From Microbulbifer sp. VAAF005 (GTDB lineage Bacteria; Pseudomonadota; Gammaproteobacteria; Pseudomonadales; Cellvibrionaceae): DNA of 64,000 bases. Numbering within the stretch: position 1 is the stretch's first letter; every line of letters starts with the position of its first letter. Shown piece by piece: positions 4,714 through 20,855 of this stretch. A program made the position numbers and the translations under genes. The notes beneath the pieces were generated by a model. The model ran no database searches and was not told the origin of the DNA. It saw only the letters and a program-made list of their open reading frames with translations. Location: the NCBI RefSeq assembly GCF_030012985.1, contig NZ_CP120233.1, forward strand, positions 4,583,001 to 4,647,000, in the 5' to 3' direction.

Positions 4714-7700
4714 GTGTCAAACTTCGACCAGATGGCAAACTTTTCTAGTTCTACCAATATCGCTAGCACCTCCACTGGCTCTAACTCATCCTCTGTCGCC
4801 AAAAATTATGCGAAGAATTTCCTTACCCAAGTCAATCCCCGTACTGGTTTACTCAGCGTTACGATTCCATCGCCACCTCTAAAAGGGATTCTCTCGATGG
4901 ATGTGAATCTCGGGATCACATACGCGCAGGAGACCGTAGGTTCCTATGAACAATTGTTTGGTCTACCTGTAGGATGGTCCTATTCGTTAAGTTACATTAA
5001 TGATGGGATCTTGACTCTCAACGGTAGCCAAACCTATGTTTTGAGTCCGGAAAGTCCTTCTGGCTTGCAGTATTACTACCAGAAAAATCTTGAAATGACG
5101 CAGTATAGTCCAGGGCAGTACCCTAATTTGCCCTATGCCCCAAGTACCCCTTACGCATACCTGCTGACCTTTTTGGACGGCCATCATCAGTATTTCGATG
5201 TCCAGGAGAAATTGATCTGTTGGGATGACAAAAATGGAAACCATCTGCTTTTTACCTATGATTCAAGCGATGCTTCCATTACACAAGCGAAGCTTATCAG
5301 TGTTACTGATGCATACGGACAAAACCTATCGATTTCACTCAGTAGTGACTCCATCGACGTGATTTACCCAAGATCCGATGCCAACCCTAACCCGATCACC
5401 TATTCTTACCAGCTACTTGAGGGCGCACTGGTTTCCTACATTGACCCTATGGGCTTGACCACGCACTTTATTTACAACGGAGGTCTTATAAATAGCAAGC
5501 TCCTCTCGAACGTCAACTATCCCAATAAAGTCAGCTCGACGTTTGACTACAGTACAATCTACTACAAAGATAGTTCTGGACAACAAGAGCAACAAGATGT
5601 CGTGAGCAAGGTGATCAACACCTATGAAGAAGAAACCCGTAGCACAACCTATAATTATCACCCTGAGCAAAGTGGTCCAGATGGCCACAATTATCTTGGA
5701 AACCCTACGTATGAGGTCGCATCTACAACATCAGATGCTTTATTTCAAAGTAATGACAATAATTACAGGTATTACACCACGATCAACAATAACAAAACGT
5801 TGGTTGTTAATCAGTACAACAATCTGCACCTTCTTCTAAAGTCGACCACTTTCACAGCAAATGGAAGCGAACGCATCCAAGAAATAGCGTACACTTATGT
5901 TGGTGAAACGGACGGCGACTTCCCCTACAACCAGCTCGATCCGAATTATCAACTGATTGCAGAAAAGCTAAGCACCTTCTACAACGAGCAAGAAGACACC
6001 AGACCCGCTAAAATTATTCGCAGCTACACAGACAATGGTCAAATTGCCTCTATCGAAGAGTACGAACAGGTAGAGGGTGAATTACAGCTCGTCAAAAAGG
6101 GAGAGGTTGAATACGATATCAGTTTTGGTATGCCCACTTCCGTTAAGGTATACGACTACAAACCTAGAGGAGTACTTAGTCAAACACCAGAGATTATAAG
6201 AACGGACAATAAGCTTTCAGATGATAAGAAGCACATCCTCACATCCACCCGCGGGACTGAATTGAGTGGCCTATTAAATCCACTACTCGTGACCTCTGTT
6301 GAGTATGACACTGCTGGCCGTCCCAGTTCCTCCACGCGTACCTGGGGTTCAGCAGCACCAGGTCATTCTGGAATTGTGAAAACCAACACGACCTTCGAAA
6401 ATATTCTTGACTCTACCGCACACACATTGACGCATGCCACAACCGATTTCTTTGGCAATACCTCTAATGAGGTTTACGATTTATGTACTGGTTTCCCAAT
6501 CTCAACCAGCAACGCCGTGGGTGCGATCACTACGTATAACTATGACCTCGCTGAAGCAACCGTAATACGCACTGACCCTATGGGAAACACCACAACATGG
6601 AGCTACGATCTTACCAATAACATAATGCGAAAGCTCGATGCCAACGGTTACGAACAGAAGTACTACTACAACGGGTTTGGGCAACTTATCCAGCAAAGTG
6701 ATTATCCTGTGAAGGGTGGGGCAGAGCGAACCTTAACGACGAATACTTATGATCAGCTGGGGCGTCTCAGCGTACAATTGGGTATTCTAGGCGAAGCATC
6801 AAAAGTCACATTCGCCTATAACGCACGCAGCCAATTAGCCTCTAAGACTGATGCCCTGGGCAATATATCGGGATACGAATATGATTCGGTAGCTTGCACG
6901 AAAGCAAGCTCTTTTAATTCGTTGAAGTCAACTGAAGTCACTTACGGTCCTGAGAAGTCTGGCGGCCCACTTCTTAGTAAATTCAAAAAAAGAGCTAAAA
7001 AAGAATATAAACAAAGACTTGTCGCTTCGGCTAAAAAGTTCGATAGGCACAATGCTAATCAGTACGCCTGCGCTACACGCTTGTGGAACGCTTTTCAACT
7101 CAATGTACAGACCAGTATTGGGGATCAGCAGACTCCTCAACAGTTTTCTCTAGCGAGATCCTACAATATCCTCCAAAGCCCCACCCAGTATTGTCTCGGT
7201 GGTGCAAATCTCAAGCGCACACTAGTGGCCTCGCGAGATCTAAATGGGAATATGCTTCAGAGCACTTGTACACTTGAAGGTGAAGGTACGCCTCAGACAG
7301 AAGCGTCGTCAAATCGTAGTTACAATGAACTCGGGGAATTCACACAAGAAGCCACACTGACGGAACAGGCTCGAAAATATTCTTATGATGCGGTAGGAAA
7401 TAGGACTCAGATCACCCAGTTTAATGGATCACAGGTAAACAGCACCTATGATTTAAACAAGCGAGTCTCTTCTCATTCGTACACCGAGAATGGCTCGAGC
7501 ATTGAAATTCATTATGAATACGATGGTGTCGGGCAGCGCACTTCCATCGAGCGCTTCGTGGATGGGGAAAGCGATGCACTGCTCAGCTACACCTACACGC
7601 TTGATGGCAATATTTCTTCAATAAGCTATCCAGACGGGAAAACAGTTTCATGGAACTACGATGTCAATACGGGCCTTCTGACTTCATCCATTGATGCGCT

Positions 7701-12168: not shown

Positions 12169-12261
12169 GGCTAACGCCACAATAACCGAGCGGAGCCAAG
12201 CGTGGTATTGTGAGCAAAGCGAACCACGCTTAGCGGAGTCCGGTTGATTGTTTTGTTAAAT
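12169..12261 (-). other. attC-like site
   Basis: GGCTAAC to GTTAAAT, with complementary blocks AAGCGTGGT and ACCACGCTT in the middle. Confidence 0.7.
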
Positions 12262-12379
12262 TTAGTGGGCAAACTCTACTTTACCTTTGTAAAGAACAGG
12301 TCTAGACATCCACCGAACAAAAAGCATAAGCCGCCAACCCTATTAGGTATGATTCATGGGTGTCCTATTTGTGTTTCAG

Positions 12380-12575
12380 ATATACGTAATGTCGCTGGTC
12401 CTGCGGCAATTTGGCCGATCCACATCGAAGCAATACTTAAGTAGCTTGGCGGCGACATTGATATTCCCCTCTACGGGCTGGCTATATCGAAAGCCTTTGC
12501 CGTTTTTCGCTTTAATATGCTCCTGTTACATCTGCGGAACTCCTCCGTATACGCCTGAGTTCTCTTCTTGCCCAT
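12380..12575 (-). pseudogene. IS3-family transposase remnant
   Basis: The minus strand starts with MGKKRTQAYTEEFRR, the typical beginning of an IS3 OrfA, then loses the frame. A second frame reads PVEGNINVAAKLLKYCFDVD and ends in TSDITYI before a stop. This matches the OrfB segment preceding the first catalytic Asp of IS3-family transposases. Most of both genes is missing. The inverted ACACCT/AGGTGT at 12600-12621 and the TGTCTACC just beyond may be part of an old element end. Confidence 0.65.
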
Positions 12576-12653
12576 GATGCACCTTCGTGTTAGGCCTACA
12601 CCTAACTATATAAGGTGTCTACCAAACGTGGGTAAGTCTTGCCTATAATGTCT

Positions 12654-12739
12654 GCATAACCAGCTTACGAAATATTACGGTCAGTTTTTATGCCTCAATA
12701 TTTTACTATCTGCATTGATGGAGTTTTAAGATGTTACAG
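12654..12739 (-). other. Possible attC site of the ATPase cassette
   Basis: GCATAAC at 12654-12660 and GTTACAG at 12733-12739, the latter containing the stop of the ATPase gene as in other cassettes. Outer bases pair (TAACCAGCTT with AAGATGTTA). The centre is AT-rich and unlike the other sites, so confidence is moderate. Confidence 0.45.
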
Positions 12740-14374
12740 GTCGGGGGTATGCCGTTTTAATTCTTGAATAATATCATCTTTTCGAGAGCTATTTATGTAG
12801 CGTAAAACTAGCCCAGGATACTTCCCGTTAGCCAAACCCAACACTCCTGACACTCTGGAAGAAAGACTTTTTCTATTGAAAGACTTAAGAACACTAGCAT
12901 AATCATTTGCTTCAATATGCAATGTGAAATCCCTGTGATACCGCTGATAGATTTCATCTATGTCTATAGACGTAAATACTGAATCCAACTGCTTTGATAT
13001 GTCATCCACTCCCTTTGATGTGTCATTAAATATGTTTAATCGAAACTTAATATCAAATGAAACTTTCTTAGATACTTGACTAGTCAATTCCTTCTGGAAC
13101 TCGGTAAAGACAAATTTTTTAACTTTTTCAAAAATCTCAGTTGGATCCAACTCAAGGCTAACTGCAACGTATTTAATTAAGCCTTCGACACATAGTAGAT
13201 TTTCCACTTCAGCAACATCAATAGTTTCGATTCCATGTGCTTTTAACGACTTCAGCTCTTCCTCTGTCCTGTAATCCCTATCTATCAGCCCCCTTACTTC
13301 TAAATGGTGTAACGAGGGAATAGATTTTAAGGCTTTTGTCGCCTCAATGACCTTTACACAGCTTCCCCTTGGTATAACTAAGTAGTCAGAATAAATAGCT
13401 TGATATATCTTATGGTCGTAACAGTTCTTTTCACCTTCAACAAACAATATCGGCTTCCGGCTACCAATTATTTCTAAGATGCTATCTTCATTTAATTCTT
13501 CATTGCAGGGAACTTCCTCCCAAAACCAAGACTCTCCGTCAAACGAACGCAGCCAAATTTTTGAATTAGTATCTCGATTCGCTGCAAAGTTTAAATCATG
13601 AGTTAAGTACACAAAGCAGCAATCATCTCGAAGTGACTCGATTTTGTCCCATAAGCAAGTTTGAAGAGACCTATGAATGTGTATCTCAGGCTCATCGATA
13701 ACAACCACTGAGTTTTTTGGCGCTAGCAAACACTGACCTAAAAGATAGAAAACTATTCTTTCGCCATCACTCATTTCTGATGCAGAGTATTCTTCACCAT
13801 CAATAGTTGTGGTTATAAACTTATTACTTAAAAGCTCTATCTTACGATGTGGAAATAACTCGTGCCAGGATTCTCTAAGAATGTCTAGCGAAGAGGCTGG
13901 AAGCTTAACACCTCGTTTCGACGTCTTAACCTTTTCAACATATTCTCTATTTCTTCTTTCCTCTTCTGCATATAGAAATCCCAATACAGAGTCAAAGTCC
14001 CACGACATTCCAGTAACAGGTTCGTCACCCCAGCGACCATACTTTGGATCTTTCTTCGCCTTACGCTTATTAGAAGAGTTTCCATACAAAAAACCGCTCT
14101 CTGCCTCTTCGTAGCTCATCGGCCAAACTTCTGATTCCATTTGGGCAATTCTTTGCGCTGAAATACGATGAACAAATTTGTCATCTAGTTGATTATACTC
14201 GATCCAATGCCCTAGGCGGCTTTTTCCAGAGCCATTAGCTCCAACTATAACCATCGAGCGCACATCATTAACGGCAACTTCTGTATTTGAATCACCACTT
14301 GATGGTAATAATATTGAAAACGTTTCCACTGCAATAGAGATCCTTTTTGTCTTACGCTTGCATTTGTGGCCCAC
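12734..14374 (-). CDS. OLD/PARIS-like ATPase fused to DUF4435 nuclease-type domain
   Basis: 546 residues. The N-terminal half is an ABC-type AAA domain. It has Walker A GANGSGKS at 45-52, the signature MSDGERIVFYLL near 200, Walker B VVVIDEPEIHIH near 222-233 and the switch His in YLTHDL near 256. From about residue 306 a DUF4435/TOPRIM-like domain follows. It has the acidic motif ILFVEGEKNCYD, LIDRDYRTEEE (D-x-D type) and IDVAEVENLL. AAA15 plus DUF4435 is the composition of the PARIS anti-phage system (AriA and AriB, also known fused), where the DUF4435 part is the toxic nuclease. Function here is inferred. The GTG start is uncertain, since the preceding bases form a GCCCAC/GTGGGC hairpin. 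It is the largest gene in the cassette array and appears bounded by attC-like sites. Confidence 0.8.
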   Translation of the reverse strand: MGHKCKRKTKRISIAVETFSILLPSSGDSNTEVAVNDVRSMVIVGANGSGKSRLGHWIEYNQLDDKFVHRISAQRIAQMESEVWPMSYEEAESGFLYGNSSNKRKAKKDPKYGRWGDEPVTGMSWDFDSVLGFLYAEEERRNREYVEKVKTSKRGVKLPASSLDILRESWHELFPHRKIELLSNKFITTTIDGEEYSASEMSDGERIVFYLLGQCLLAPKNSVVVIDEPEIHIHRSLQTCLWDKIESLRDDCCFVYLTHDLNFAANRDTNSKIWLRSFDGESWFWEEVPCNEELNEDSILEIIGSRKPILFVEGEKNCYDHKIYQAIYSDYLVIPRGSCVKVIEATKALKSIPSLHHLEVRGLIDRDYRTEEELKSLKAHGIETIDVAEVENLLCVEGLIKYVAVSLELDPTEIFEKVKKFVFTEFQKELTSQVSKKVSFDIKFRLNIFNDTSKGVDDISKQLDSVFTSIDIDEIYQRYHRDFTLHIEANDYASVLKSFNRKSLSSRVSGVLGLANGKYPGLVLRYINSSRKDDIIQELKRHTPDL

Positions 14375-14420
14375 GTTTTTTGTGGGCTTTATTAATTGCC
14401 TTGGTGTCTTTGCGGTTGCA

Positions 14421-14515
14421 CATCAACTTTGTTGCAACCATTTTTAAAATCTAGCTTGGAGTAAAACTCGTCCAAAACCTGTAGGTCAGCTTTTCAAAGT
14501 GGACGATTTGTCAAA
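14421..14515 (-). other. Possible attC-like site
   Basis: CATCAAC to GTCAAAA, the second including the stop of the fragment at 14510. Internal pairs are CGTCCA/TGGACG and GGTTGCA/TGCAACC. Cores are non-standard; the GTCAA form also occurs at 21867. Confidence 0.4.
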
Positions 14516-14642
14516 ACGAACCTATTTGCCCGTGTATTACTCCTAGCTCACCAGTGCGTTTTTTTACTACGACTTTAGCTAGTTTCAATTTTAACACAGT
14601 GATTTTACCGTCATTTAGGGTAACTTCAAATTTTAATCGCCT
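14510..14642 (-). pseudogene. Short cassette gene fragment
   Basis: 43 codons open on the minus strand, RRLKFEVTLNDGKITVL and VVVKKRTGELGVIHG to a TGA at 14510-14512. Composition looks like real protein, but no start codon precedes the conserved part and the upstream side is an attC site. It is probably a truncated small cassette gene, or one using an unusual start. Family not recognised. Confidence 0.4.
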
Positions 14643-14647
14643 TTATA

Positions 14648-14698
14648 AAGAAAACGCCTCAAGCAGCCGATGCGTCAGCGGTCGGCTAGATTTATTTG
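14648..14698 (-). other. attC site interrupted by a group II intron
   Basis: The left part of the attC (AAAACGCC through AGCCGATGCGTCAGCGGTCGGCT) ends ATTTG at 14698. The intron follows, and the rest of the core resumes at 15406 (TTATAC). Joining both sides restores GTTATAC, a normal core containing the stop codon of the 15406 gene. Confidence 0.75.
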
Positions 14699-15405
14699 GT
14701 ACGCCCAGCATGGGCGTGAACTAATGGGGTGAAAGTCCCCTGTAGGAAGATCACCGTTTAATGGACTTCATTAAATGCTAACTACTAGCGAATGGCAACT
14801 GCAACACCGTGAGGTCTTGTGGGGAGGAAGCCGCTAGCAAAACTACGAGCTGACGGACAGAAACATCATATAAGGCTTAGCCTGGAGGCGAGGTGGCCAA
14901 GAACACCGAAGCCATGTGATCTAACGGGTAGAGTAAATGATGCAGTTGTGTAGTGAAAGTTCACGTTCTTATCTGGGGAGATCTGTTTAACTTGCCGCTG
15001 TGAAGATGTCAGGGTGGCCGCTGACTCATAAATAGGCCCAGCCCGCTAGCCACCATCGCGGGGGATAGAAAAAAATGGTGGAACACAGCAGCGCTCCGCT
15101 CAGTAATGAGTAGGGTGATTAAACAGAAGTCAGCAGACGGCATAGTAGCCAAATGCCAAGATTAATACCTTGGACAGGGTGAAGGCCTGAACCTAAAACC
15201 ACGAGTTGAAAGACAGGGCTAGCCTACTGATATGTTTCCAGTCGGTTAAAGTTGATGTAGCGCACTGCCATGACACTCAACTCAAATGAAGATCTGCTCG
15301 ATACTATCGTTGGGTAGAGATTCATTACGGATAGGAACCGCCCATTGCGGACCCGCATGATGGGTGGTGTGGGGGCCGGTAGCTAAAAACTACCGGCTAC
15401 CCGAT
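14699..15405 (+). mobile_element. Group IIC-type intron lacking its reverse-transcriptase gene
   Basis: 707 bp. It begins GTACGCCCAGCATGGGCGTG, is nearly identical to the first 590 bp and the last 95 bp of the intron at 18448-20363, and ends CTACCCGAT. Domain V (GAACCGCCCATTGCGGACCC onward, about 15334-15376) and the domain VI hairpin (CCGGTAGCTAAAAACTACCGG) are intact. The reverse-transcriptase ORF is deleted from just after its first 10-11 codons to its last few, leaving a 15-codon frame from ATG 15270. The RNA could still fold, and splicing or mobility would need a protein supplied in trans. It is inserted in an attC core and faces opposite to the cassettes. Confidence 0.85.
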
Positions 15406-15795
15406 TTATACGAAAACTGGTTGCTGGTTTGCATATCCCCATACCCTGTAACACCCATTTTCTAAGGAGTATGGGATATTGTACTTTTTCAGAACAGTTG
15501 CTATAAAGCCACTGAAGTCAGTAATTCTATCACTTAAAAGATTGCCCCTTCGCTCTCTTTTGAATGGGTCAATATCCATCCACTCGATACAGTTAGATTG
15601 ACCATAACGAACCCATTCCCAATCAAGCAGCGAAAACCCAGGCATTGCCTCTAAGTCTCGTAGATATTTAAGCCTTACTTGAGGCTCGAAATCACTGTTA
15701 CTTGTAATGGCATTAGCGAGTTCTCGCCACTTTGTTTTGTTCATATACGAAACAAGGCGCCGCTCTTCAATAAATTTTAGTGTTTCTTCGTTCAT
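15406..15795 (-). CDS. Hypothetical cassette protein, possibly DUF6678-like
   Basis: 129 residues, soluble, no signal peptide. It contains YMNKTKWRELANAITSNSDF near residue 17, VRLKYLRDLEAMPGFSLLDWEW, and C-terminal YSLENGCYRVWGYA. The N-K-T-K-W-R-E-L start is reminiscent of DUF6678 proteins; this is from memory and uncertain. The first 17 residues may be extra, if translation begins at MNKTKW. Its stop codon is the first triplet after the intron, that is, part of the interrupted attC core. The IS4-type element is inserted just upstream of it, 22 bp before the start codon. Confidence 0.6.
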   Translation of the reverse strand: MNEETLKFIEERRLVSYMNKTKWRELANAITSNSDFEPQVRLKYLRDLEAMPGFSLLDWEWVRYGQSNCIEWMDIDPFKRERRGNLLSDRITDFSGFIATVLKKYNIPYSLENGCYRVWGYANQQPVFV

Positions 15796-15816: not shown

Positions 15817-17290
15817 CTGTGTTTTATACACATTATTTAAGTCCACTTAGAGTTTCTGCTGCCTCTATATAATGAAGTAGCTTGGTGTATCCCTGCCAAA
15901 CGGTTTTAACTCCTGGCTCGCCATCCCCTTTACGCCCCAAAAAACCTCCTAAACCTGCCAACATACGGGTTATCTCCCTCATACTTGGGGGTTCATTTGG
16001 TGGAGTAGTTTTATCTCGCATCATCCATATCATACGCCATTCTTTTTCAGAGTAGGCACTTGTACACGGTGCGTCAGGAACTCTTCGTGCATGCGTAGTT
16101 ATCGAATGTAGCCGCCATCCAATAATCATATAGATCGCAATGCAGTTCAACATGCGCTGCTCTGTTCTAAAACGGTTACTTTCTATCTGGCATCCGCCTT
16201 TCACCACCCGAAAATAGGTTTCAATTTCCCACCGGCTTCGATACCACTCAATGATGACCCTTGCCTGCTTAAAGTCTTCAACTGGAAGATCAGTTAACAG
16301 CATCCACTCAATGCCTTTTTCACCCTCTGGTGGGTTTAATTCTTTAGCCAATACAGCATAGAGAGAAAGTGGTCGTTTAGATTTTCCTTTCCCAAGTAGC
16401 CGTATCTCAGTAGTGGATACACTGACTTTGGCTTTTCTTCCAGATTCACCATTCCGTTTGGGAATATCTACCGTGTATAGACCAACAGATTTCTGCTCAT
16501 TCATATGATCCCAAAGCAAAACCGTTTCTTCTCCATCGAGCTCTAAAGTGCGATTGGCCTTAGCTCGAACGATATAGCTCGCCCGCCGCTGTTCACTTTG
16601 ATCTTCAGCCAGTTGAAACCACTCATGAATATCACCCTCTCTATCAGCAATACTCACAATTGTACTTTCAGGGCAGCGCTCCTGTATCTGACAAGCCGTT
16701 TCGTAATGGTCTAGCCAGCGTCGACTCTCCTTATTCTTTATCGACTTGGTATAACGGGAATTAGAGCTTGATTCCTTGTCTCTCTGCCACATACTACCCT
16801 CAACAACACCCAAGTTAACTCTTGATGGCGTTATAGCGATGGAGGTGTGCAAGAGTTGCTGATTGGTCTCTTTCCGCCTAAGTGTTCCCATCTCTTTACT
16901 TTCTAAGTCAGTGGCAAAATTTAGAAAGGTGGTATCTTGAGGGATAAGAACAACGGGCTGCGCCTTGATTCTCTCAAGAGTTGCCGATTTATGGCCGCTC
17001 ATAATAGAATCAAAATTGACTTTATCATTTTCGATAAAGCGATAAGCTGCAAACGTTTCTGCCCAAGTTTTGTTTGCACAGGGAATGCTATTCTTTGGAT
17101 CTGAACTTAAACTACTAAGAATATTGGACAAGCGCTTATTCAAACGTGTATCACCCATAACCTGATTTTTTACTTCCTCCATGACCCAGCCCTGCATAAT
17201 TATCCAATCAAATCTGTAATTCATGCCAGGTCAAACTGTAACTTATTGATTTACATAATAAAACCGGAAAAACTTGTGTATAAAACTTAG
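15817..17290 (-). mobile_element. IS4-family insertion sequence
   Basis: 1474 bp. Terminal inverted repeats read CTGTGTTTTATACACA on the left and CTAAGTTTTATACACA on the right (complement). The flanks carry the 8-bp direct repeat CGCCTGCC at 15809-15816 and 17291-17298. The target was an attC site, whose two halves can be rejoined. It carries one transposase gene filling nearly all of the element. The intact reading frame and precise duplication indicate a relatively recent insertion. Confidence 0.9.
15833..17224 (-). CDS. IS4-family transposase
   Basis: 463 residues, intact. The N-terminal DNA-binding part is WVMEEVKNQVMGDTRLNKRL and AETFAAYRFIENDKV. The DDE catalytic domain has a first Asp in LIPQDTTFLNF, a second in IVSIADREGDIHEW, and the Y-(2)-R-(3)-E-(6)-K signature in YRSRWEIETYFRVVK. 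This is the Tn5/IS50-like branch of the IS4 family. Translation may start at MNYRF or a few codons later (MQGWVMEE). It catalyses cut-and-paste transposition of the surrounding element, reads in the same direction as the cassette genes, and fills the element to within 70 bp of each end. Confidence 0.93.
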   Translation of the reverse strand: MNYRFDWIIMQGWVMEEVKNQVMGDTRLNKRLSNILSSLSSDPKNSIPCANKTWAETFAAYRFIENDKVNFDSIMSGHKSATLERIKAQPVVLIPQDTTFLNFATDLESKEMGTLRRKETNQQLLHTSIAITPSRVNLGVVEGSMWQRDKESSSNSRYTKSIKNKESRRWLDHYETACQIQERCPESTIVSIADREGDIHEWFQLAEDQSEQRRASYIVRAKANRTLELDGEETVLLWDHMNEQKSVGLYTVDIPKRNGESGRKAKVSVSTTEIRLLGKGKSKRPLSLYAVLAKELNPPEGEKGIEWMLLTDLPVEDFKQARVIIEWYRSRWEIETYFRVVKGGCQIESNRFRTEQRMLNCIAIYMIIGWRLHSITTHARRVPDAPCTSAYSEKEWRMIWMMRDKTTPPNEPPSMREITRMLAGLGGFLGRKGDGEPGVKTVWQGYTKLLHYIEAAETLSGLK

Positions 17291-17605
17291 CGCCTGCCGC
17301 ACAGGCGAGCAACTTGTTGCGAGTCCAGCGCACGAAGTGCGCGATTGTGCCGGCACTTGTATGGTGTTTTTACCGTAGTACTTGTATAAAACAAAGCATG
17401 TAGCTAAAAACACCAAGATTTGTATGCAGTAGTAAATATAGAAATCTGGAAATGCCCAGATAATTACAAGCACCATTGCAAATGAAAGGCTGAGTATAAA
17501 ACCCGCCTGTATCTTAAACAGCCGGTTACTGCCGCCTGCTATAAACATAGAGTATGCAAGCAGCAATAACTGTACGACCAAAAATATTACTAACCCGCCA
17601 CCCAT
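17243..17605 (-). CDS. Small membrane protein with attC/IS-encoded tail
   Basis: 120 codons. The first 80 form three hydrophobic helices (LVIFLVVQLLLLAYSMFI, AGFILSLSFAMVLVIIWAF, YCIQILVFLATCFVLY). The remaining 40 residues read through the attC site (VPAQSRTSCAGLATSCSPVRQA), and the last 16 come from the IS4-element end. Other cassette genes stop inside the attC core, whereas this one does not. Its present C-terminus is therefore partly an accident of the insertion. No family recognised. Confidence 0.55.
   Translation of the reverse strand: MGGGLVIFLVVQLLLLAYSMFIAGGSNRLFKIQAGFILSLSFAMVLVIIWAFPDFYIYYCIQILVFLATCFVLYKYYGKNTIQVPAQSRTSCAGLATSCSPVRQALSFIHKFFRFYYVNQ
17291..17365 (-). other. attC site split by the IS4 element
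   Basis: The left stub, GTATAACGCCTGCC (15803-15816), and this right part rejoin across the 8-bp duplication into one attC with GCAACTTGTTGC and GCGCACGAAGTGCGC palindromes and a GTATGGT-like end. Confidence 0.7.
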
Positions 17606-18447: not shown

Positions 18448-20363
18448 GTACGCCCAGCATGGGCGTGAACTAATGGGGTGAAAGTCCCCTGTAGGAAGAT
18501 CACCGTTTAATGGACTTCATTAAATGCTAACTACTAGCGAATGGCAACTGCAACACCGTGAGGTCTTGTGGGGAGGAAGCCGCTAGCAAAACTACGAGCT
18601 GACGGACAGAAACATCATATAAGGCTTAGCCTGGAGGCGAGGTGGCCAAGAACACCGAAGCCATGTGATCTAACGGGTAGAGTAAATGATGCAGTTGTGT
18701 AGTGAAAGTTCACGTTCTTATCTGGGGAGATCTGTTCAACCTACTGCTGTAAAGCTGTCAGCGTGGCCGCTGACTCATAAGTAGGCTCAGCCCGCTAGCC
18801 ACTATCGCGGGGGTAAACAAAATTGGTGGAACACAGCAGCGCCTTGGTCAGTAATGATCAAGGTGATTAAACAGAAGTCAGCCGACGGCATAGTAGCCTA
18901 ATGCCAAGATTAATACCTTGGATACGGTGAAGGCCTGAACCCAAAATCCACGAGTTAAAAGACAGGGCTAGCTTACGGATATGTTGCCAGCCGGATATAA
19001 AATTGACGTAGCGCACTGCCATGACACTCAACTCAAATGAAAATCTGCTTGAAGCCATCCTCAGCAAAGAAAATCTTAATGCTGCATGGAAACACGTGCG
19101 AAGCAACAAAGGTGCCGCAGGCATTGACGGGATTACTGTCGATAATTTTGTGCAGCACTTCAAGGCAGTTGGCGACGAGCTCATCGAGACCATTCGACAG
19201 GGTCATTACCAGCCGCTTCCCGTCAGGCGCGTCTACATTCGCAAGCCAGATGGTGGCCAGCGTGGTCTCGGGATACCTACGATCTTTGATCGTGTTATTC
19301 AGCAGGCTATCGCCCAAATCATCGGTCCCTGTTTCGATAAAACCTTTTCGGAGTTCAGCTATGGATTCCGCCCAAAGCGATCACAGCATCATGCGGTGAA
19401 AAAGCTGCGAAAGTATATCGAGGGAGGGAAACGAATAGCAGTGGATGTCGATTTATCCAAATTCTTCGACCGGGTAAATCATGATTTCCTCATGAGTTTA
19501 CTTGGCCAAAGAATCAGCGATAAGCGCGTACTCAAACTGATCGCAAACTACTTGCGTGCAGGAAGTGTAGAAGATGGATGCTGGAAAGCCTGTCATGAGG
19601 GGGTGCCACAAGGTGGCCCTTTATCGCCGCTGCTCTCCAACATTGTACTCCACTTGCTCGACAAAGAGCTGGAAAAACGCCGACACAATTTCGTCCGCTA
19701 TGCGGACGATTTTGTGATTGTGGTTTCCTCTAAACGCGCGGGTGAACGGGTTATGGCGAGTATTAAACGCTTTGTTGAGCGCAAGCTTAAGCTCAAAGTT
19801 AACGATACTAAAAGCCAAGTGGTTCCTGTCAGCCGTTGTAAGTTCCTAGGCTTCTCTTTTCGGGGGCAAAGCTTGTCTGGCATGATAAGTCCCTGCTCCA
19901 ATTTAAATACCGCGTCCGACAGATTACAGGGCGATCTCGTGGTATCTCTATGGAAAAGAAACTGAAAGAACTTACCGTATACCTCCGTGGTTGGATCAAC
20001 TATTTTGGAATAGCGCAAGGCTATCAAAAATGTATCGATCTAGACTGCTGGATACGACGGCGATTAAGAATGAGCTATTGGAAGAATTGGCGCAGAGTGA
20101 GAACGAAAGTTCGAAATTTACTGCGTATGGGTGTGAGTGAATCGCTGGCAGTTACCTGCGGCTCGTCCGGTAAAAGTTACTGGCGAAGCGCAAAAACTGA
20201 GGGTATTCATATTGCGCTCAATAATGAGTTCTTCGAAGGGATGGGTTTGATTTCATTGCGAGATCGTTGGGTAGAGATTCATTACGGATAGGGAACCGCC
20301 CATTGCGGACCCGCACGATGGGTGGTGTGGGGGCCGGTAGTTAGAAACTACCGGCTACCCGAT
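18448..20363 (+). mobile_element. Group IIC (attC-type) intron, full length
   Basis: 1916 bp, starting GTACGCCC and ending CCGAT. About 570 bp of domain I-IV ribozyme sequence precede the reverse-transcriptase gene. Domain V (about 20294-20334, GAACCGCCCATTGCGGACCC and GATGGGTGGTGTGGGGGC) and domain VI (CCGGTAGTTAGAAACTACCGG) follow it. The short intron-encoded protein without endonuclease domain, the domain V form, and insertion in an attC in the direction opposite to the cassette genes all fit the known IIC-attC lineage. The five bases before both intron copies are ATTTG, presumably the intron-binding site. Confidence 0.88.
19021..20291 (+). pseudogene. ltrA: Group II intron reverse transcriptase/maturase with frameshift
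   Basis: Two frames together encode a 423-residue LtrA-like protein. The first (19021 to about 19866) has RT fingers and palm, with RYADDFVIVVSS as the catalytic motif and IAVDVDLSKFFDRVNHD as the other Asp motif. It then runs off into a wrong frame ending at 19965. The second frame supplies KLVWHDKSLLQFKYRVRQITG, the maturase X domain (LRGWINYFGIAQGYQ) and the tail GLISLRDRWVEIHYG. One G is missing from a G run at 19862-19866; six G would restore FRGAKLVW. There is no endonuclease domain, as in class C. It could be a true mutation, a sequencing error, or slippage at the run. Confidence 0.88.
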
Positions 20364-20855
20364 TTATATTTTGTAATTTAGCCAACGAAGAACACCCAAC
20401 CAAAAAGCACCATTAATGAGTGCTTCTGGTTCGTTTTTCTTAAGCCAAGCCACAAAGCTATCTACGTATTGGCTAGGTATATTGTTCTTTATATAAGCTT
20501 GATCGTCTATATCTACAGCTCCATTAATACACTCTTGAAACAGATGTAATGACTGAGAAAGCTTCAAGAGATTTGTTGCCATAAAGTCCTGCTCTCCATC
20601 CCTCAAGCGAACCACAACAAAGTTACCATTTATACATATAGGGTAATCGTCACGATCAGAGCCGATAGCATAAAGAATTTCATTCTCGTAGTTGATCGCC
20701 GGCAACCAGGTTTCTTCATCGCCGAAATACATATTTGGCGCACACCAGTTCGGCAACCCAACTTCTGACATAAAAGCTATAGCTTCGTCATCAAGTCCGA
20801 TATCGGACAGCCTTGATTTTGGATATTTAGAATATGAGTCAAATAGTTCGTTCAT
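20364..20855 (-). CDS. SUKH-type immunity-like protein
   Basis: 163 residues, soluble and acidic. The order LSDIGLDDEAIAFMSEVGLP, NMYFGDEETWLPAI, LYAIGSDRDDYPICINGNFVV, DFMATNLLKLSQSLHLFQECI matches the SUKH-4-like pattern: aim helix, G-L-P, I-G-x-D, P-I-C-x-D/N-G, then F-x-x-x-S/N-L-x-x-F. SUKH proteins neutralise diverse nuclease and polymorphic toxins. No toxin lies in the same cassette, so it may be an orphan immunity gene. Its stop codon immediately follows the group II intron and lies inside the interrupted attC core. Confidence 0.6.
   Translation of the reverse strand: MNELFDSYSKYPKSRLSDIGLDDEAIAFMSEVGLPNWCAPNMYFGDEETWLPAINYENEILYAIGSDRDDYPICINGNFVVVRLRDGEQDFMATNLLKLSQSLHLFQECINGAVDIDDQAYIKNNIPSQYVDSFVAWLKKNEPEALINGAFWLGVLRWLNYKI

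Follow-up and report, generated by a model that had tools for sequence, protein, structure and literature searches.

The minus-strand gene at 12734-14374 of the window (the whole analysed stretch of 64,000 nucleotides, C1:4583001-4647000 of a 5.4-Mb genome in a single contig) raises two questions, namely whether its product is a PARIS-type defence system in one chain, and whether the gene is or was an integron cassette. The reading that we favour with fair, though far from full, confidence is that of a fused PARIS-type abortive-infection protein (AriAB) whose gene probably arrived as or inside an integron cassette and now sits, its own sites decayed or lost, in a portion of the array without integrase.

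Regarding the first question, Pfam DUF4435 and AAA_21 matched the protein with 78.7 and 42.1 bits, respectively (cut-off 27 for both), and AAA_15 reached 31.1 bits, short of its cut-off of 32.1. The PADLOC model AriAB gave 526.8 bits (E 1.7e-158), with residues 18-543 on model positions 28-564 of 570; the separate models gave 59.3 bits (AriB) and 55.4 bits (AriA), and the models ATPase-Toprim_I-B and GajA gave 43.8 and 29.7 bits. Fusion models have been built from AAA_15 or AAA_21 plus DUF4435 (excerpts of Rousset 2022, PMC9122126), and by this definition, with both domains in one protein at cut-offs of 32, 27, and 27, the window protein is a fused PARIS through AAA_21 and DUF4435. The DUF4435 match is the single one across this genome. 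The ATPase-DUF4435 make-up and the PARIS composition in one chain, both proposed in the first-pass annotation, thus hold far above chance. This composition is already known, as AriA-AriB fusions have been described: 5.2% of genomes have ariAB, either as a gene pair or fused into one gene (PMC9122126, in excerpt), and AriA and AriB are fused in some cases (PMC12409363, in excerpt). The window protein resembles the fused AriAB of PADLOC (PDLC02982) in its near full-length match, domain order, and size class, with no difference in composition; what differs is the setting of the window copy in a decayed integron array.

The ORF list of the window contains the gene as an intact minus-strand ORF of 546 codons from GTG 14374, which agrees with the length and motifs quoted in the first-pass annotation. 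In the alignment, the start of the relatives falls near codon 16 of this ORF, at GTG 14329, and ahead of this codon there is an AAGGA-like site (preceding letters AAAAAGGATCTCTATTGCA) that we read as a Shine-Dalgarno site. As the relatives start there and these letters precede, the true product is likely the protein of 531 aa rather than that of 546 aa. A terminator-like hairpin on the plus strand at 14368-14388 (0.5 expected by chance) extends across the listed GTG and is a further weak argument for the start at 14329. The features of the gene are:

12734..14374, minus strand: fused AriAB ORF as listed; likely coding sequence 12734-14329, 531 aa (domains and start by alignment)
14219..14242, minus strand: Walker A GANGSGKS, residues 30-37 of the 531-aa form (motif in sequence)
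13760..13771, minus strand: ABC signature SDGE, residues 187-190 (alignment and sequence)
13685..13708, minus strand: Walker B VVVIDEPE, residues 208-215 (alignment and sequence)
13430..13444, minus strand: putative Toprim glutamate motif FVEGE (E298 invariant in 14 rows)
13274..13285, minus strand: putative Toprim IDRD (D350 and D352 invariant in 14 rows)

We take GANGSGKS to be the Walker A motif on established grounds, and E-G plus DxD is the Toprim pattern. In an alignment of 14 fused proteins (A3, in which one broken copy is represented by its open part), invariant positions are, among others, G30, N32, G35, K36, S187-E190, D212, P214, E215, and H244 (H-loop) in the ATPase half and E298, G299, D305, D350, D352, and E376 in the second half. 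The Walker A and B motifs and the Toprim acidic residues are intact in the window protein, and about 50 residues separate the last ATPase motif (THD, 243-245) from the putative Toprim glutamate (298). In split AriB, the Toprim mutant E26A was inactive (PMC12409363, in excerpt), and E298 of the window protein would correspond to this E26.

For the second question, we used an attC covariance model trained on 15 sites, 12 from the window and three from near the integrase. At E<=1, it found 20 sites in the window (12 training sites and eight others), all on the minus strand, with scores of 31-65 bits for 16 sites and 16.5-24.6 bits for four; a first attC scan without trained weights had given no signal above the control part of the window. 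These 20 sites bear out that the AriAB gene sits inside an integron-type cassette array, on the strand of the array. Genome-wide, at least 69 attC sites were found at E<=0.1 (150 of 1189 candidates scored), and those listed form nine groups at a 20-kb gap, two of which are single sites. The genome search gave one integron integrase over the cut-off, at C1:1629262 with 417 bits, and no integrase gene beside the window array. As this sole integrase is about 3 Mb distant, the window array is a CALIN (cluster of attC sites lacking integrase). Across the chromosome, attC sites occur dispersed on both strands against a single integrase above the cut-off, a picture that the break-up of a large integron would give. 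A note of caution is that same-strand attC sites around a gene are no proof of a still-movable cassette. The surroundings of AriAB comprise the following features:

12169..12261, minus strand: nearest recognisable attC downstream (49.0 bits, training site)
12377..12648, minus strand: IS remnant with internal deletion (IS3-like by our reading)
12641..12739, minus strand: expected place of the cassette's own attC, with no recognisable site (scans, folding, shuffles)
14649..14700, minus strand: 5' attC remnant, degenerate and intron-split, with right core GTTTTCT (11.3 bits)
14699..15409, plus strand: group II intron, 711 nt (boundaries by eye; no ORF of at least 50 aa inside)
15406..15795, minus strand: neighbouring gene DUF6678 (stop codon overlaps the intron end; overlap by eye)
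15833..17224, minus strand: Tn5-type transposase gene, DDE_Tnp_1 and Tn5 dimerisation domain (domain search)
17285..17364, minus strand: nearest recognisable unsplit attC upstream (39.2 bits, not in the training set)

The first-pass annotation had placed attC-like sites on both sides of the gene and its stop codon in a core. We scanned 12500-14800 with the covariance model with filters off, and the 3' flank was not recognisable as attC, the best match (12608-12670, minus strand) having 5.7 bits and the proposed lower boundary stretch (12654-12739, plus strand) 3.0 bits. By a second attC score, likewise trained on sites of the window, the 3' flank (12590-12760) reached 11.1, which was equalled or beaten in 35% of 432 control windows from 27-64 kb (median 9.7, highest 27.8). 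A wider 3' stretch reached 15.8 (control 95% point 15.9) by signal from letters within the IS remnant. Single-strand folding of the 3' flank was no better than that of shuffles (z 0.98; 166 of 200 shuffles equalled or surpassed it); as one of three true attC sites folded likewise stood out (z -3.62) and two did not (-0.46 and -0.72), folding alone is not decisive. An attC formed by CTGTAAC at the stop and GTTATGC was rejected with scores of -5.4 and 0.8 and a stem of -1.5. CTGTAAC was also considered together with ATTATAG at the end of the IS, where five core positions and one G-T form pairs; with the two cores fixed, the stem score was attained in 991 of 5000 shuffles. What is left of the stop in a core is the weak CTGTAAC at the stop codon, and of the two flanking sites a degenerate, intron-split 5' candidate, inside a genuine array.

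The IS remnant starts 85 nt beyond the AriAB stop. Directly beside the same IS end, attC-core letters are found in three other copies (L035, L037, and L038). The attC of L037 was confirmed by the model (29.5 bits, E 0.014); no attC at E<=0.1 was found beside the IS end of L035 and L038, where the cores were read by eye. It is plausible that an attC was formerly present at the 3' flank of AriAB, and the element, IS3-like in our reading, may prefer attC sites.

On the 5' side, the best match in the filters-off scan was the remnant at 14649-14700 (E 0.1 in 2.3 kb), and no match up to E=10 was found over 14395-14648, where the upper boundary proposed in the first-pass annotation falls. With the intron flanks joined, the 5' site scored 19.7 (control 99% point 19.6), although its left core was displaced. 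The intron at 14699-15409 would, judging by where and in which orientation it lies, be of the IIC-attC type. As IIC-attC introns insert antisense at attC sites (Leon and Roy 2009, cited in excerpts of PMC7923331), the 5' remnant was probably once an attC, and its position would assign it to the DUF6678 gene. Among the 35 listed intron 5' ends, eight lie within 25 bases of a detected opposite-strand attC, and the other 27, including that of the intron at 14699-15409, have no such attC at E<=0.1. Within the AriAB leader of about 320 nt, an apparent 3' remnant of a small ORF was seen by eye at 14497-14640 on the minus strand.

Like the introns described in the excerpts of PMC7923331, this one would lie antisense at an attC in a cluster without integrase; the junction letters in the window are short of the full TTGT/T consensus, and a further difference is the number of group II intron matches in one genome, at least 53 (40 of 72 candidates scored), many of them pieces. 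At least 35 reach the 5' end, and most matches share their regions with the attC clusters; this is a heavy load for one genome. Besides the copy at 14699-15409, the window contains one at about 18448-20367. By eye, the genes beside both introns seem to take their stop codons from the intron 3' end (15406-15408 and 20364-20366), which would fit an intron that had joined a gene to an attC, an idea of cassette formation cited in PMC7923331. The gene at 20364-20855 has a weak match to SUKH-4 immunity proteins (22.2 bits, cut-off 25.5).

With flanks of this kind, AriAB could also never have been a cassette, IS and transposon traffic having brought in a gene that merely sits among attC sites. We consider this doubtful. 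The missing recognisable 3' attC, the IS remnant on one side, the intron and the Tn5-type transposase on the other, and the long distance from the 5' remnant to the likely start (about 320 nt) would all suit such an origin, but AriAB lies on the same strand as the cassettes, the same IS end adjoins attC-core letters in the three other copies including the confirmed one, and the relatives described in the following include a clean cassette and two further full-length copies of the same genus among attC sites.

The clean cassette is that of Pseudoalteromonas piscicida (L032), whose fused AriAB is 40.8% identical over 98% and matches the AriAB model with 518 bits. The replicon (1.3 Mb, listed as a plasmid) carries an integron integrase of 460 bits; six attC sites were detected after it, and the fused AriAB comes next. 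The listed AriAB start is 26 nt after the upstream attC (5888-5992, 40.2 bits), compared with the 320 nt in the window, and the stop codon is inside the attC at 7615-7669 (28.3 bits; filters-off E of 1.4e-6 over 301 bases). By its sequence, this gene is a textbook integron cassette, which shows that integrons can carry a fused AriAB as a genuine cassette. The P. piscicida locus has both an integrase and attC sites that are recognisable, and offers a system to test integron mobilisation of a tRNase-type defence.

In the family of the window genome, four of 144 genomes, the window genome included, match the AriAB model at E<=1e-25. The fused AriABs of G104 and G093, both of the same genus, are divergent and each among attC sites. 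In G104 (180 bits), attC sites are found 217 nt upstream (26.7 bits) and 936 nt downstream (31.4 bits), and in G093 (159 bits), a weak site (14.7 bits, E 0.025) precedes the gene by 4 nt and another lies 1.3 kb downstream (20.8 bits). In G024, AriAB is split between two frames, and no attC at E<=1 was found in the 5.2-kb contig. L011, at 54% the closest relative found, is not in a clean cassette: neither gene end has an attC, and a single good site lies 2.7 kb upstream. With default filters, no attC at E<=1 was found in 24 of 27 relative loci. The attC count among these loci is a lower bound, as longer flanks (4-kb L018) or the scan with filters off (downstream site of L032) revealed more. In any case, integrons are not the general setting of the fused AriAB.

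On a tree of 20 rows, the labels of the four integron-borne AriABs require four changes, and well-supported branches force at least three; the changes may be gains or losses, and shuffled labels take a similar number (mean 3.8). The position of G093, a very long branch, is unsure. The fact that the integron-borne copies do not group suits repeated capture without proving it. L017, L018, L025, L026, L032, and L058 are in the tree and outside A3. Outside both are L046 (start and length as in L045), L048 and L049 (longer, with extended N-termini), and L053 and L054 (short matches); L016, L019-L024, and L027-L031 (partial or distant matches) were left unaligned.

Another reading is that AriAB is a silent relic, intact yet unexpressed in a dead array. 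The integrase is not beside the array, the flanks of AriAB are weak as attC, and the one promoter-like match upstream of the gene compares with 1.1 expected by chance; the 546-codon open frame with its intact key motifs speaks against this reading, and we regard the relic as unlikely and infer that the gene is expressed.

Integrons are known to carry phage-defence cassettes (Darracq 2025, Getz 2025, and Kieffer 2025, as treated in excerpts of PMC12409362 and PMC12444791). The window likewise has a predicted defence gene in an attC array, but this array is without integrase and the gene's own attC sites are weak or absent. In the excerpt of PMC12409362, integron defence genes are described as streamlined, with systems of more than two genes absent. 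A one-gene PARIS would fit this description, yet fused genes outside integrons are about the same size. Our search, which did not extend to the 2025 primary papers on integron defence cassettes, found no paper on PARIS in integrons among those listed and none treating DUF4435 together with the integron; one review covers PARIS, AriAB, and integron in separate contexts.

The favoured reading as a fused PARIS-type AriAB implies kinship with the split system of E. coli, in which an AriA hexamer carries up to three AriB, and triggers such as Ocr lead to release of AriB, which dimerises and cuts tRNA (PMC11455837, PMC12409363, both in excerpt). No phage challenge of a fused AriAB appears in the literature excerpts covered. 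Both systems combine an ABC ATPase with a DUF4435/Toprim part with Glu and DxD motifs. The ATPase half matched split AriA in a profile comparison with a probability of 90.7% (E 1.2e-6), and against solved structures its profile scored higher with a retron ATPase than with solved AriA (49.8 vs 40.4 bits). For the Toprim half, hhalign against a single split AriB gave a probability of 1.5% (E 0.034, 32 columns around the IEN motif), and its profile found no AriB among the solved chains at E<=1. The single window protein had no match below E 0.07 among the solved structures. As direct comparisons with AriB are weak or empty, it is the family models, DUF4435 and AriB, that carry the kinship of the second half. 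It is very unlikely that PARIS applies by name only and that this is an OLD- or retron-like ATPase-Toprim protein with a Toprim half acting on DNA (like OLD or GajA), as the retron Ec83 and Ec78 ATPases that outscore solved AriA, the matching GajA chains, the weak alignment to split AriB, and the roughly 200 residues that the ATPase lacks relative to a split AriA are set against a near full-length AriAB score far above those of ATPase-Toprim_I-B and GajA and against the clear match to DUF4435, the AriB family.

In the published model, AriB leaves the AriA hexamer and pairs as an active dimer, which a covalent AriAB cannot do. The window protein is one chain with a fixed 1:1 ratio of the halves, and as there is also little linker room, release of the effector is impossible without proteolysis. 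We therefore propose activation in place. The ABC-type half would assemble and keep the Toprim half inactive until a phage protein alters the ATPase; in split PARIS, the triggers are DNA-mimic anti-restriction proteins. By a rearrangement inside the assembly, with the effector still tethered, the Toprim half might then cleave host RNA, probably tRNA if the target of split PARIS can be transferred to the fused protein by analogy, and growth of the infected cell would halt. A covalent AriAB is thus a natural test of what the PARIS switch needs.

As to size, the first-pass annotation had suggested a distinct subtype because the fusion is smaller than typical AriA and AriB together. In the window protein, 157 residues separate the start of Walker A (30) from the signature serine (187), and this spacing is 151-161 in four other fused proteins and 362 (32 and 394) in the split AriA of Paraburkholderia sabiae. 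In solved AriA (464 aa), the stretch 309-430 aligns to profile positions 132-249. Judged by motif spacing, the window fusion is small because its ATPase has about 200 residues fewer than one split AriA. The other 18 unbroken fused relatives in the tree set (viral contigs, plasmid, and genomes), integron-borne or not, have 523-573 aa, as has the window protein; the remaining tree row is the 452-aa open part of a frame-broken copy, and two longer viral ORFs, with 593 and 646 aa when the start is chosen mechanically, were outside the tree set. As fused relatives outside integrons are of similar size, small size is no mark of a distinct subtype, and this part of the annotation was rejected, the more so as such fusions were reported in 2022 and the AriAB model fits. 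The short ATPase is, as far as these alignments go, a property of the fused group.

More broadly, fused PARIS could be a recurrent integron cargo that was captured several times, is switched on while tethered, and has a short ATPase without the long insert, a tentative generalisation to which we give somewhat less than an even chance. On a plasmid of Paraburkholderia sabiae (L058, 432400-436900), a split PARIS pair adjoins a fused AriAB on one strand.
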